DNA from: Natrarchaeobaculum aegyptiacum
GTDB lineage: Archaea; Halobacteriota; Halobacteria; Halobacteriales; Natrialbaceae
NCBI RefSeq assembly: GCF_002156705.1
Contig: NZ_CP019893.1
Coordinates: forward strand, 2,790,001-2,854,000
DNA: 64,000 nt
Reading direction: 5' to 3'
The position numbers and the translations under genes were made by a program. Position 1 is the first letter of the stretch. Each line of letters starts with the position of its first letter. The notes below the pieces were generated by a model. The model saw only the letters and a list, made by a program, of their open reading frames with translations. It was not told the origin of the DNA and did no database searches. Positions 20,918-62,881 of this stretch are shown here, piece after piece.

Positions 20918-20977
20918 GACTGTCGGTGAACTACCCCATTCGCTCACCGCTGACGCGGTTCGCTCCTTGAGGGTAGC

Positions 20978-21026
20978 GTGAGACCGGAGGTCTCACGGAC
21001 CATGCGAACGGGCGCTTCGCGCCCGT
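20978..21026. repeat. Double-hairpin unit a (in right-end stem loop)
   Basis: Two perfect palindromes: GTGAGACC/GGTCTCAC (20978-20996) and ACGGGCGC/GCGCCCGT (21008-21026), 11 bases apart. They sit in the loop of the element's right-end stem. Confidence 0.7.
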
Positions 21027-21058
21027 GAACAGATGGGGCTTCCTGTTTCCACGACGTT

Positions 21059-21097
21059 GTCAGACTACGTCTGACAGCCCGTGAGATGTAATCTCAC
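21059..21097. repeat. Double-hairpin unit b (spans tnpB stop)
   Basis: GTCAGAC/GTCTGAC (21059-21075), a 5-base spacer, then GTGAGAT/ATCTCAC (21081-21097). The first palindrome contains the tnpB stop codon, so the last residues of TnpB are encoded by this insertion. Confidence 0.7.
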
Positions 21098-22379
21098 GAA
21101 CGCGCTTTGCAGATACGGACGTATCCACAGGGAGCGCAGTCTCCACAGGCGTTCGAAAATCGCTGCGCGATTTTCGTAGCCCATCAGAACCGACAGGTTC
21201 TGAGGACGTTGCTTCGGAGTGACCCACTCCTACTTCTTCGAGACCGCGAGAAAGGATGTTCCACGCCGTCGCAAAATCGCACGCGATTTTGCTGCCCGTC
21301 AGACGTAGTCTGACGACCGCATTCGCGTCCCTGTCCGCCTCGAACGCGCACGAAGGACACGAGTGTTCACGAACCCACAGCGGTTTGTCCGTCTTGACAC
21401 CGCAGGACGCACACTCCTTCGTCGTATCTTTCGGATCAACCGCGACGAAGTGCGTTCCTTCGTGCCCGCACTTGTATTCGAGCATCCGGAGGAACGTCCC
21501 CCACGCCGCGCCTGCTCGGTTCCGTGAGTTACCGGGGAGTTCGACCAGCCCCTTCGCGTCCAAATCCTCAACGGCCACCAAGTCGTACTCGGTGGCGTAG
21601 TAGTTCGACAACTTGTGAAGGAAGTCGCGCCGCTTTCGCTTGAGATCGGCGTGTCGCTCGGCCACAACTCGGCACTGTTCCTCCCAATTCGCAGAGCCGT
21701 GTTCCTTCCGTGAGAGATCGCGCTGGGCGCGTTCGAGGCGTTCGCGCTCGGCGCTGAAGTCAGGACTCTCGATGGCGTACCCATCGGTGTCGTGGGCGTA
21801 CTTGAGAATCCCCACGTCGATACCAACCACCTTCTCGGGCGTCTCTGGTTTTTCAGGTGTGTTTTCCCCAACGTCGATGCCGAACGTGGCGTACCACTCG
21901 CCCGTGGGTTCCTGCTTGACCGTGACCTGTTTGATGGTCGCACTCTCGGGGATGTCTCGGTGGAGGTGGATCGGGATTTCACCGATCTTGCTCAACCACA
22001 GGACAGGCCGACCACTCGTATTCTTGAGTTTGAAGCCGGACTGATTGTAGGTGAACGAACGGTACTCTCGGGGCGGCTTCCACTTGAGCATCCCCACGGC
22101 GCGTCCGTTCTCCTTCTGCGCTTTGAGCGTGGAGAGGTTGTCGTAGACGCGCTTGACGACCATCTGGAGAACTTTCGAGTGAACGTCCCCGAGGTCGTCC
22201 CACCACGATTTGAGGTCGGGGAGCTGCCCCTGCACCTCGTAGCGGGTGGGAATGTCGTCTGCGTCGTTGAGTTTGTAGAGGACGTGGTTGGAGAGTTGCC
22301 TACAGGTATCGACATGGTGCAGAAGCGTCTCGGTGAGGACTTCCGGTGGGTCGAGTCGATACCTGTAGTTGTACTGCAT
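21060..22379 (-). CDS. tnpB: RNA-guided nuclease TnpB with in-frame palindromic inserts
   Basis: IS200/IS605-type TnpB, the omega-RNA-guided DNA nuclease ancestral to Cas12. The RuvC residues are present: Asp188 (VVGIDVGILKYA), Glu271 (VAVEDLDAKG) and Asp351 in ADRDANA. The zinc ribbon has CASC (323-326) and CPSC (341-344). Unusually, the conserved run NA-AWNIL right after the last catalytic Asp is split by about 17 extra residues (355-371), and a further block of about 19 residues follows GHSEAT before PVETALPVD. Both blocks, and the last residues, are encoded by double-hairpin DNA. The frame stays open, but insertion near the catalytic Asp may reduce activity. Length is 439 residues. Confidence 0.85.
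   Translation of the reverse strand: MQYNYRYRLDPPEVLTETLLHHVDTCRQLSNHVLYKLNDADDIPTRYEVQGQLPDLKSWWDDLGDVHSKVLQMVVKRVYDNLSTLKAQKENGRAVGMLKWKPPREYRSFTYNQSGFKLKNTSGRPVLWLSKIGEIPIHLHRDIPESATIKQVTVKQEPTGEWYATFGIDVGENTPEKPETPEKVVGIDVGILKYAHDTDGYAIESPDFSAERERLERAQRDLSRKEHGSANWEEQCRVVAERHADLKRKRRDFLHKLSNYYATEYDLVAVEDLDAKGLVELPGNSRNRAGAAWGTFLRMLEYKCGHEGTHFVAVDPKDTTKECASCGVKTDKPLWVREHSCPSCAFEADRDANAVVRLRLTGSKIACDFATAWNILSRGLEEVGVGHSEATSSEPVGSDGLRKSRSDFRTPVETALPVDTSVSAKRVREITSHGLSDVV
21154..21203. repeat. Double-hairpin unit c (in tnpB)
   Basis: CGAAAATCGC/GCGATTTTCG (21154-21176) with a 3-base loop, a 7-base spacer, then TCAGAACC/GGTTCTGA (21184-21203). It encodes the extra block between GHSEAT and PVETALPVD in TnpB. 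Confidence 0.8.
21271..21314. repeat. Double-hairpin unit d (in tnpB)
   Basis: GCAAAATCGC/GCGATTTTGC (21271-21292), a 5-base spacer, then GTCAGAC/GTCTGAC (21298-21314). It encodes the extra block that splits the conserved NA-AWNIL run just after the last RuvC Asp. Its first stem is nearly the same as that of unit c and its second matches unit b. Confidence 0.8.
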
Positions 22380-29697: not shown

Positions 29698-30990
29698 GTG
29701 AACCGAATTCAAAGAGCGTTTCCATCCGATGAGTTGCGCGAGCGTGCTCGCGCAACGAATCTTATCCAGCGAGAGCGGAAACTCGACGTCGTCGCGTTGT
29801 TTTACACGCTCTCCCTCGGCTTTGCCGCTGGTTCTGATCGATCCATTCAGGCGTTTCTCGAACGCTACGTCGAGATGGCTGACTGCGACGAACTCTCGTA
29901 TGCGACGTTTCACGGCTGGTTCAAACCAGGGTTCGTCGCACTCCTTCGAGAGATTCTCGATGAGGCCATCGAGAATCTCGACACCGGCCAAACCGAGCTG
30001 AGCGGACGTCTCGAACGATTTCGAGACGTCCTCATCGTCGACGCGACGATCATCTCGCTCTACCAAGACGCCAAAGATGTCTACGCACTCGATGATGACC
30101 GAGCCGGGGCGAAACTCCATCTCACCGAATCGCTCTCAACGGGACTTCCAACGCGATTTCGGACGACCGACGCGAGCACCCATGAACGGAGCCAGCTACC
30201 CACCGGCGAGTGGGTAGCTGGCGCCCTCATTCTGTTCGATCTCGGCTACTACGATTTCTGGCTGTTCGACCGCATTGACGCCAATGATGGCTGGTTCGTC
30301 TCTCGCGTCAAAGAAAACGCAGACTTCGAAATCGTCGAAGAACTCCGGACGTGGCGAGGGAACAGCATTCCGCTAGAAGGCCAGTCGCTGCAGGCCGTCC
30401 TCGACGACCTGAAGCGACAGGAAATTGACGTACAGATCACGCTCTCGTTCGACCGCAAACGAGGGTCGGGCGCCAGCGCGACCCGAACCTTCCGATTAGT
30501 CGGCGTTCGCAACGATGACAGCGGCGAGTATCATCTGTACCTGACGAATCTGGAGAGAGACGACTACCGCGCGCCCGATATCGCACAGCTCTATCGGGCG
30601 CGCTGGGAGATCGAACTGCTGTTCAAAGAACTCAAATCACGGTTCGGTCTGGACGAGATCAACACGACCGACGCCTACATCATCGAGGCGCTGATCATCA
30701 TGGCAGCACTCTCGCTGCTGATGAGCCGGGTTATCGTCGACGAACTCCAGAAACTGGACGCAAAGCAGCGAGACTGCGCCGACGACGCCGCGGCGTCGTC
30801 GACGCGGCTTCCTCGACGACGATGTTCACACGCTGTCGAACGCCACGCTCATCTGATCCAGTTGTACCTGATGTTGGATCTGGGGTACGAGCTACCGGAT
30901 CTCGATTCGTTGTTGCTGTGGTCGTCACGAGATCCAAATCCACACCGTCCGAGGTTACGTGAACAGGTGGAGTCAGGCGAGTTCTGGTAA
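29698..30990 (+). CDS. ISH8-type transposase
   Basis: DDE transposase of the IS4 family, ISH8 group, 430 residues from the GTG at 29698 (442 if the upstream GTG at 29662 is used). Catalytic regions: RDVLIVDATIISLYQD for the first Asp, LFDLGYYDFWLFDRID for the second, and YRARWEIELLFKELKSRFG for the Glu (the YREK-like motif). The end PHRPRLREQVESGEFW is the typical ISH8 C-terminus. No disruption is seen, so it may be active. Confidence 0.9.
   Translation: MNRIQRAFPSDELRERARATNLIQRERKLDVVALFYTLSLGFAAGSDRSIQAFLERYVEMADCDELSYATFHGWFKPGFVALLREILDEAIENLDTGQTELSGRLERFRDVLIVDATIISLYQDAKDVYALDDDRAGAKLHLTESLSTGLPTRFRTTDASTHERSQLPTGEWVAGALILFDLGYYDFWLFDRIDANDGWFVSRVKENADFEIVEELRTWRGNSIPLEGQSLQAVLDDLKRQEIDVQITLSFDRKRGSGASATRTFRLVGVRNDDSGEYHLYLTNLERDDYRAPDIAQLYRARWEIELLFKELKSRFGLDEINTTDAYIIEALIIMAALSLLMSRVIVDELQKLDAKQRDCADDAAASSTRLPRRRCSHAVERHAHLIQLYLMLDLGYELPDLDSLLLWSSRDPNPHRPRLREQVESGEFW
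29733..29756. repeat. Perfect palindrome in ISH8 transposase (N-terminal)
   Basis: GTTGCGCGAGC pairs with GCTCGCGCAAC with only two bases between, inside the coding sequence (residues LRERARAT). Confidence 0.7.
30191..30222. repeat. Perfect 13-bp-arm palindrome in ISH8 transposase
   Basis: GCCAGCTACCCAC pairs with GTGGGTAGCTGGC around a 6-base loop. It encodes SQLPTGEWVAG. Confidence 0.75.
30780..30801. repeat. Perfect 22-bp palindrome in ISH8 transposase
   Basis: CGACGACGCCG followed directly by CGGCGTCGTCG, in the variable linker of the transposase (DCADDAAASST). Confidence 0.7.
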
Positions 30991-62037: not shown

Positions 62038-62881
62038 CTACGTTTCGCTGTTGCTGGCAGAGGGTTCCGACCCGTGGAAAGTCGAGAGAGTCATCTGCGA
62101 GGGTTCCTCGCTCGTCTCTCGGTGTCGTTCGAAAGACGCGTCGCGTCTTTCGTGATCACGAGACGGCTCCGCCGTCTCGAACGAGGTCGTGGCGCTGTCA
62201 CAGGCGCTCCCATCCCGTGAGATGTCATCGCCCGCCGGTTTCAGCGGCAGGCTCTCACCCCACGGGTCATGGCGGCCAGCGATGTTGACCGCCGCGTTGA
62301 TGTCTGCGTGGTACTCCGATACCCAACACTCGTCGTTCTGGCACCGGAACACGTCACCGTTCCGGTGCCCGACGTGACCGCACTCGTGACACGTCTGACT
62401 CGTGTACTCTGGTCGGACGTATTCGACCGGAAGCCCTGCCTCTCGTGCCTTGTCATCGATGCGCTGTTGAAGCCGAGCGAACGCCCATGCGTGGAGTCGT
62501 CGGTTCATCCACTCACCGTAATCGAGGTCTTCACGGATGTCCGAAAGATCTTCCAGCACAAGCACTGGCTTCTCGAATCGACAAGCATACTCGACAGCAC
62601 GTCGAGACGCCTTCTCGATGATGTCTGTGAGTGCGTTCTGGTAGTGGTCGAATCGCTCGTCTATCCGCCACTGTGAGGCGTCACGCTCTTGGAGTCGCTT
62701 GAGCGTCGTGAACATCTCTTTGCGAAGGTGACGAGCGCGACCACCGTTGATTTGTCGCTTGTCTCGTTGTCCGAGTCCGAGTTCGAGCGCGCGTTCCGAG
62801 AACGCGTCCAGTCTGTCATCGTCTACGCCTCCAGTCGCGGTTGGTGCGTCCGTACTTGGGGGTTCGATTGGACATACTCGC
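62038..62881 (-). pseudogene. tnpB: TnpB, N-terminally truncated, with palindromic insert
   Basis: C-terminal part of a TnpB nuclease. The second catalytic Glu (VLVLEDLSDIRED), the zinc ribbon (CHECG and CQNDEC) and the last Asp (YHADINAAVNIAG) are present, but the RuvC Asp region of the N-terminal half is absent. Similarity begins at about 62881 (VCPIEPPSTDAP) and an ATG at 62715 would give 225 residues. The C-terminal tail contains about 20 residues (FETAEPSRDHERRDASFERH) encoded by a double-hairpin unit. It cannot cut DNA. Confidence 0.75.
62130..62179. repeat. Double-hairpin unit e (in second tnpB)
   Basis: CGAAAGACGCG/CGCGTCTTTCG (62130-62152, one-base loop), a 6-base spacer, then CGAGACGGC/GCCGTCTCG (62159-62179). 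It lies in frame in the C-terminal tail, the same place as unit c of the first TnpB, but with different stem sequences. Confidence 0.75.

Follow-up and report, generated by a model that had tools for sequence, protein, structure and literature searches.

Why should the 3' region of a single transposon gene carry four pairs of perfect palindromes? The question is raised by a 64,000-nucleotide stretch of the Natrarchaeobaculum aegyptiacum genome (contig NZ_CP019893.1, positions 2,790,001 to 2,854,000; hereafter the window), in which four double hairpins (units a-d) lie in and next to a tnpB gene. An earlier note, made from the letters of the window alone, had taken them for in-frame insertions of a mobile palindrome. 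All four lie where that note had placed them, the near-identical first stem of units c and d and the second stem common to b and d are as it had described them, and their density is beyond chance level: there are 10 double hairpins in 464 kb of this genome, against 0-2 in third-order Markov shuffles, and four of the ten fall within one 340-bp stretch. A search for the two-hairpin layout, which the note had suggested, yielded a fifth unit in the window. Overall, at least three of the four hairpin pairs in tnpB are copies of a previously undescribed mobile element. We assign a probability of about 85% to the conclusion that units b, c and d belong, with the unit at 62128, to a haloarchaeal superfamily of non-autonomous mobile elements. 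The features concerned are the following:

21060..22379, minus strand: host gene tnpB (IS1341/IS605-type), with OrfB_IS605 and Cas12f1-like_TNB domains, 439 aa including inserts
20974..21033, minus strand: unit a, 60 nt, in the right-end region of the tnpB element; hairpins 20977-20997 and 21008-21026, no CG flanks, family membership uncertain
21057..21100, minus strand: unit b, 44 nt, at the 3' end of tnpB; CG flanks 21055-56 and 21101-02, frame-shifting 46-nt insertion
21152..21206, minus strand: unit c, 55-nt type-1 element in tnpB; CG flanks 21150-51 and 21207-08, in-frame 57-nt insertion
21269..21317, minus strand: unit d, 49-nt element in tnpB; CG flanks 21267-68 and 21318-19, in-frame 51-nt insertion
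62128..62181, strand unspecified: fifth unit, 54-nt type-III element (56 nt with CG), double hairpin 62130-62179; CG flanks 62126-27 and 62182-83; located in the 3' coding part of a truncated tnpB-like open reading frame (62038-62715, minus strand)

Evidence for insertion comes from empty sites. The region was aligned with four plasmid-borne relatives (L041-L044), originating from Natrialbaceae AArc-T1-2, Halorussus halophilus, Haloterrigena alkaliphila and Halorientalis marina. Sites a, b and d are uninterrupted in all four of them and site c in three, the Halorussus copy having an insert with other stems at the same c position. The nearest TnpB, with 93% protein identity, contains none of the inserts. 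As the note had supposed, the residues are thus inserted and not ancestral. At sites b, c and d, a single CG is seen when the site is empty and one CG at each end of the unit when it is filled; with their ends exactly defined, the units are clean insertions of 46, 57 and 51 nt. The presence of CG at both ends is compatible with either a 2-bp target duplication or an end carried by the element.

The earlier description of in-frame insertions within tnpB holds only in part. By comparison with insert-free relatives, unit c (55 nt plus CG) adds 19 codons and unit d (49 nt plus CG) adds 17, and the tnpB frame is kept in both cases. In unit b (44 nt plus CG), on the other hand, the frame of the last tnpB residues is shifted and the C-terminal tail is shortened to REITSHGLSDVV, while unit a lies outside the open reading frame altogether. 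Since unit a also lacks CG flanks and has a longer spacer than the other units, its membership of the family is uncertain; it is present in L009 and L018, as well as beside another TnpB in L008, and absent from the four related elements. Unit d splits the conserved run with the last RuvC Asp between DRDANA and AWNIL, just as the note had it, and would probably harm TnpB activity. An AlphaFold model of the window TnpB was too poor for use (mean predicted local distance difference test score, pLDDT, 44.7).

How far does the element extend beyond this gene? Our census was based on patterns and sampled stretches. The search pattern, which represents the left hairpin of c-type copies and the spacer next to it, was matched in 178 of 293 Halobacteriales genomes and in 62 of 87 genera, and the reversed control gave zero matches; copy counts, such as the seven c-type copies in the window's genome, are lower bounds, since the pattern covers the c-type only. 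More than 119 stretches in genome_contigs contain it, and among the matches listed all are haloarchaeal except one. This sole bacterial match (L114) has no second hairpin and was rejected as chance. None of the viral contigs scanned with the c-type pattern carries it, and the Rfam 15 covariance models gave no match for the element. Elements measure 44-62 nt. The c-type consensus reads CG-TCC YCAGAA..nnn..TTCTGR TG[G/T]GC(TG), hairpin 2, NA-CG; other spacer types (TGATCA/TGATGA, GGC and GGCA) form sister groups, to which units b, d and the fifth unit belong, and element ends share only CGTY/RACG. Most recurrent insertion sites resemble IS605 elements or palindrome-associated elements (PATEs).

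Copies of the element were also found in host genes, and at many sites joining of the flanks restores an intact protein. These genes encode fibrillarin, PurL, NadC, an NAD(P)H-hydrate dehydratase, a Cu-ATPase, a rhodanese/metallo-beta-lactamase protein, a PEBP-family protein, several histidine kinases, the C-terminus of CoxI and an FAD oxidase. For fibrillarin, an alignment of 26 genomes from a single genus shows an exact 54-bp insert, with the predicted peptide VQQTESAAAHQNSESSED, that is shared by two of them and absent from the other 24. Element and flanking bases are identical over 58 nt in the two species, while the coding DNA flanking it differs at 12 of 84 and 16 of 300 positions. In five of six proteins scanned, a Pfam domain runs across the insert (Carb_kinase, Lactamase_B, PBP, HATPase_c and HAD hydrolase). 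In PurL the insert is located between domains, and PDB homologues of NadC align on either side of it, with a gap at the insert region. Copies in host genes stand in frame; the inserts use different frames and strands, and the peptides encoded differ. Special freedom from stop codons was considered and rejected, since open frames are slightly rarer in the elements than in random haloarchaeal DNA. Separately, histidine kinases in L070, L080, L158, L227, L228 and L231 contain a short in-frame repeat, AVEHGSTSPRSQ..EDAVEHGSTGNRP..DDAVEHG, next to a double-hairpin hot spot at about the beginning of the ATPase domain. The repeat appears to be a coding insert of another kind.

Dispersal is evident from near-identical elements at unrelated loci: a copy in a histidine kinase and one in tnpB, for instance, differ at one position, and the copies in L117 and L157, as well as those in L141 and L170, are identical. 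In a phylogeny of 34 TnpB proteins from which the insert columns were left out, the c-site of tnpB underwent at least 10 changes of presence and at least 14 changes of element type. The site is thus a hot spot at which elements were repeatedly inserted, exchanged or precisely lost. Around the CG, targets are weakly biased towards G at -2 and C at +2 (GN-CG-NC); a preference for the loops of target hairpins was too weak to retain (p 0.04). The non-autonomous palindrome tolerating coding insertion that the note had proposed is, then, order-wide, located at unrelated loci and in frame in host genes.

Some further arrangements deserve mention. In the window's genome, a longer PATE-like repeat occurs in two copies (L258 and L264), each of which contains a differently looped double-hairpin element. 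Neighbouring elements, head to head or in tandem, occur at L004:2935-2985, L083 and L181. Apparently one recurrent site, where CAAAAA precedes the element, is occupied across several genera (L079, L087, L094, L109, L120 and L175). The window also contains a different double hairpin at 30004-30050, of which an inverted near-identical copy is found elsewhere in the genome (L051:3386-3432).

On this reading, the element comprises two perfect hairpins, with stems of 7-11 bp and usually 3-nt loops, separated by a short type-specific spacer (TGGGCTG, TGTGCG, TGATCA, GGC or GGCA). It inserts at a CG dinucleotide, which then stands at both element ends; having no gene, it must depend for its movement on an enzyme acting in trans. 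Its preferred targets are IS605/IS1341-type (TnpB) elements, some sites in which are fixed hot spots, and host genes are also entered; there, copies with a length that is a multiple of three are retained and would be translated as 18-20 added residues.

What might this enzyme be? We compared 20 high-copy with 20 zero-copy genomes. Y1_Tnp was detected in all 20 of the former and in 8 of the latter (p 5e-5), and the median number of TnpB was 26 and 5.5, respectively, while DDE_Tnp_1 did not differ (6 versus 7). The link of copy number to IS200/IS605 content is therefore firm. IS110, absent from 14 of the 20 high-copy genomes, is unlikely as a general mobiliser. Such evidence induces us to favour, weakly, an IS200/IS605 Y1 (HUH) transposase that would move the element as a folded single strand, a tentative proposal which should be seen as a lead and not as a result.

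Several points weigh against this account. No transposition event was observed. All ten host genes examined carry inserts of a length divisible by three, which speaks for the account, but several of the ten came to light because an open frame spans the insert, and this favours such lengths; among five host genes picked without regard to frame, all five inserts are multiples of three, versus 15 of 35 at other sites. One of these five, the Cu-ATPase, has a relative (L068) that carries a 53-nt, frame-shifted copy. Apparent coding insertions of a length not divisible by three mostly proved to be intergenic calls or transposase remnants. As for the enzyme, the correlation with TnpB is confounded, since TnpB copies are also the main targets. 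Moreover, a Y1 transposase went undetected in 8 of 40 low-copy, element-bearing genomes, so that Y1 is not needed for persistence. Finally, the symmetric CG target with its weak bias would also suit a dimeric recombinase or a DDE enzyme.

These last points lead to the alternative that survives best, namely, the same mobile element moved not by Y1 but by an enzyme that uses CG as a 2-bp core or duplicates it (an IS607-like serine recombinase, a DDE transposase or an IS110-type enzyme with bridge RNA). It would account for the single CG of empty sites and the CG at both ends of filled ones, for the palindromic character of the target bias and for the element-bearing genomes without Y1. However, DDE_Tnp_1 content does not differ between high- and zero-copy genomes, and most high-copy genomes lack IS110. 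We consider this alternative possible, if somewhat doubtful.

The remaining explanations can be judged from the stems and loops. At the inner left-stem positions left free by the pattern, 427 of 437 pairs (about 98%) are Watson-Crick, and in the commonest architecture, with its three varying pairs, pairing is better than in all 500 shuffles. Structure is thus kept and sequence is not. G-U pairs are not in excess over A-C mismatches, which argues against selection on an RNA strand. This also tells against an element acting at the RNA level, where splicing or ribosomal bypass would prevent the addition of residues, as do the multiple-of-three lengths in host genes, needless if the insert were skipped. 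Strong hairpins within coding genes, as in mitochondrial bypass elements, would fit such a reading, but we find it very improbable. Loops are nearly equally frequent in both orientations (GAA 25/TTC 20, AAA 7/TTT 8, AGA 6/TCT 6), as if whole hairpins flip or get recopied. Together with the perfect arms, this would suit local palindromes produced by replication template switching, through arm copying or hairpin inversion, with no mobile element involved. The common ends (CGTCC...ACG), the common spacers and the near-identical copies at unrelated loci make such an origin very improbable, although template switching may cause the turnover of stems after insertion. Least probable of all is an ancestral origin of the hairpins as structural parts of the TnpB omega RNA or of IS605 ends, with loss from some copies. 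Units a-d do occupy the region that encodes the omega RNA in TnpB elements, and many copies elsewhere sit in IS605-type elements. However, omega RNA is expected only with tnpB, and fibrillarin, PurL, histidine kinases and further host genes contain the element too, which already contradicts this idea; moreover, the nearest TnpBs are without all four units, and no Rfam family matches.

The double-hairpin element can be compared with several known systems. Paired hairpins mobilised by a Y1-type enzyme are familiar from REP/BIME with RAYT; however, the conserved GTAG at the hairpin foot of those repeats is missing from our consensus, and coding insertion is common in the haloarchaeal elements. 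The earlier note had likened the units to the palindromic elements of Rickettsia, which are small, non-autonomous palindromic repeats located in frame in unrelated protein genes and translated (PMC10969869). The likeness extends to behaviour, that is, in-frame insertion in unrelated protein-coding genes, and not to sequence, length or architecture. The Rickettsia elements are about 150 bp long and encode a conserved peptide, whereas the haloarchaeal ones are 44-62 nt double hairpins, concentrated in transposons, with freely varying stems and peptides. The best explanation is that the latter work like Rickettsia palindromic elements while being unrelated to them.

Regarding the novelty claimed by the note for haloarchaea, we found no earlier description in open-access papers, subscription papers and ISfinder not being covered. 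The nearest case is SMR-A of Haloquadratum walsbyi (HqIRS42, 43 and 55), transposase-free repeats whose mobiliser is unknown and which strongly target IS605-type transposons and PATEs; they are about 110 bp long, with terminal inverted repeats, no target duplication and more than 95% identity within a type, and lie mostly outside open reading frames (PMC3119063). The preference for IS605-type elements and PATEs is matched by our elements, whose copy number follows TnpB. In contrast to the near-uniform SMR-A with their prominent terminal inverted repeats, however, double-hairpin elements are half as long, share only the short end motifs, have divergent stems and also occur in coding genes. PATEs, including 52-bp terminal-only forms, derive from fused IS605 ends (PMC3119063). 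They are likewise very short, with two palindromes and a link to IS605, whereas double-hairpin elements sit inside IS605/PATE elements and have ends of their own (CGTY...RACG). The mobile double-hairpin elements of Allomyces mitochondria, as cited in PMC4478555 (Paquin 2000), have the same name and two-hairpin layout, but belong to fungal mitochondrial DNA and are likened here by description only.

In its widest form, our scenario is that of an order-wide, gene-less superfamily of about 50 nt, spreading by an undescribed, CG-directed and structure-recognised route, probably with IS200/IS605 enzymes. Its stems would be renewed by arm copying or inversion, and its in-frame classes of 54, 57 and 60 nt would persist in core protein genes. 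We regard this whole as an even bet; if it is correct, the element would continually supply archaeal proteins with new loops. In-frame mobile palindromes have been discussed as a speciality of Rickettsia, and a 2024 review considered similar events in other prokaryotes as only conceivable (PMC10969869). There is now an archaeal case, unrelated in sequence and about a third of the length, spanning most of the haloarchaeal genera sampled and genes as conserved as those for fibrillarin and PurL. It offers culturable model organisms in which one can test how protein inserts arise, which enzyme moves elements of this kind and how IS605/TnpB elements are hyperparasitised.
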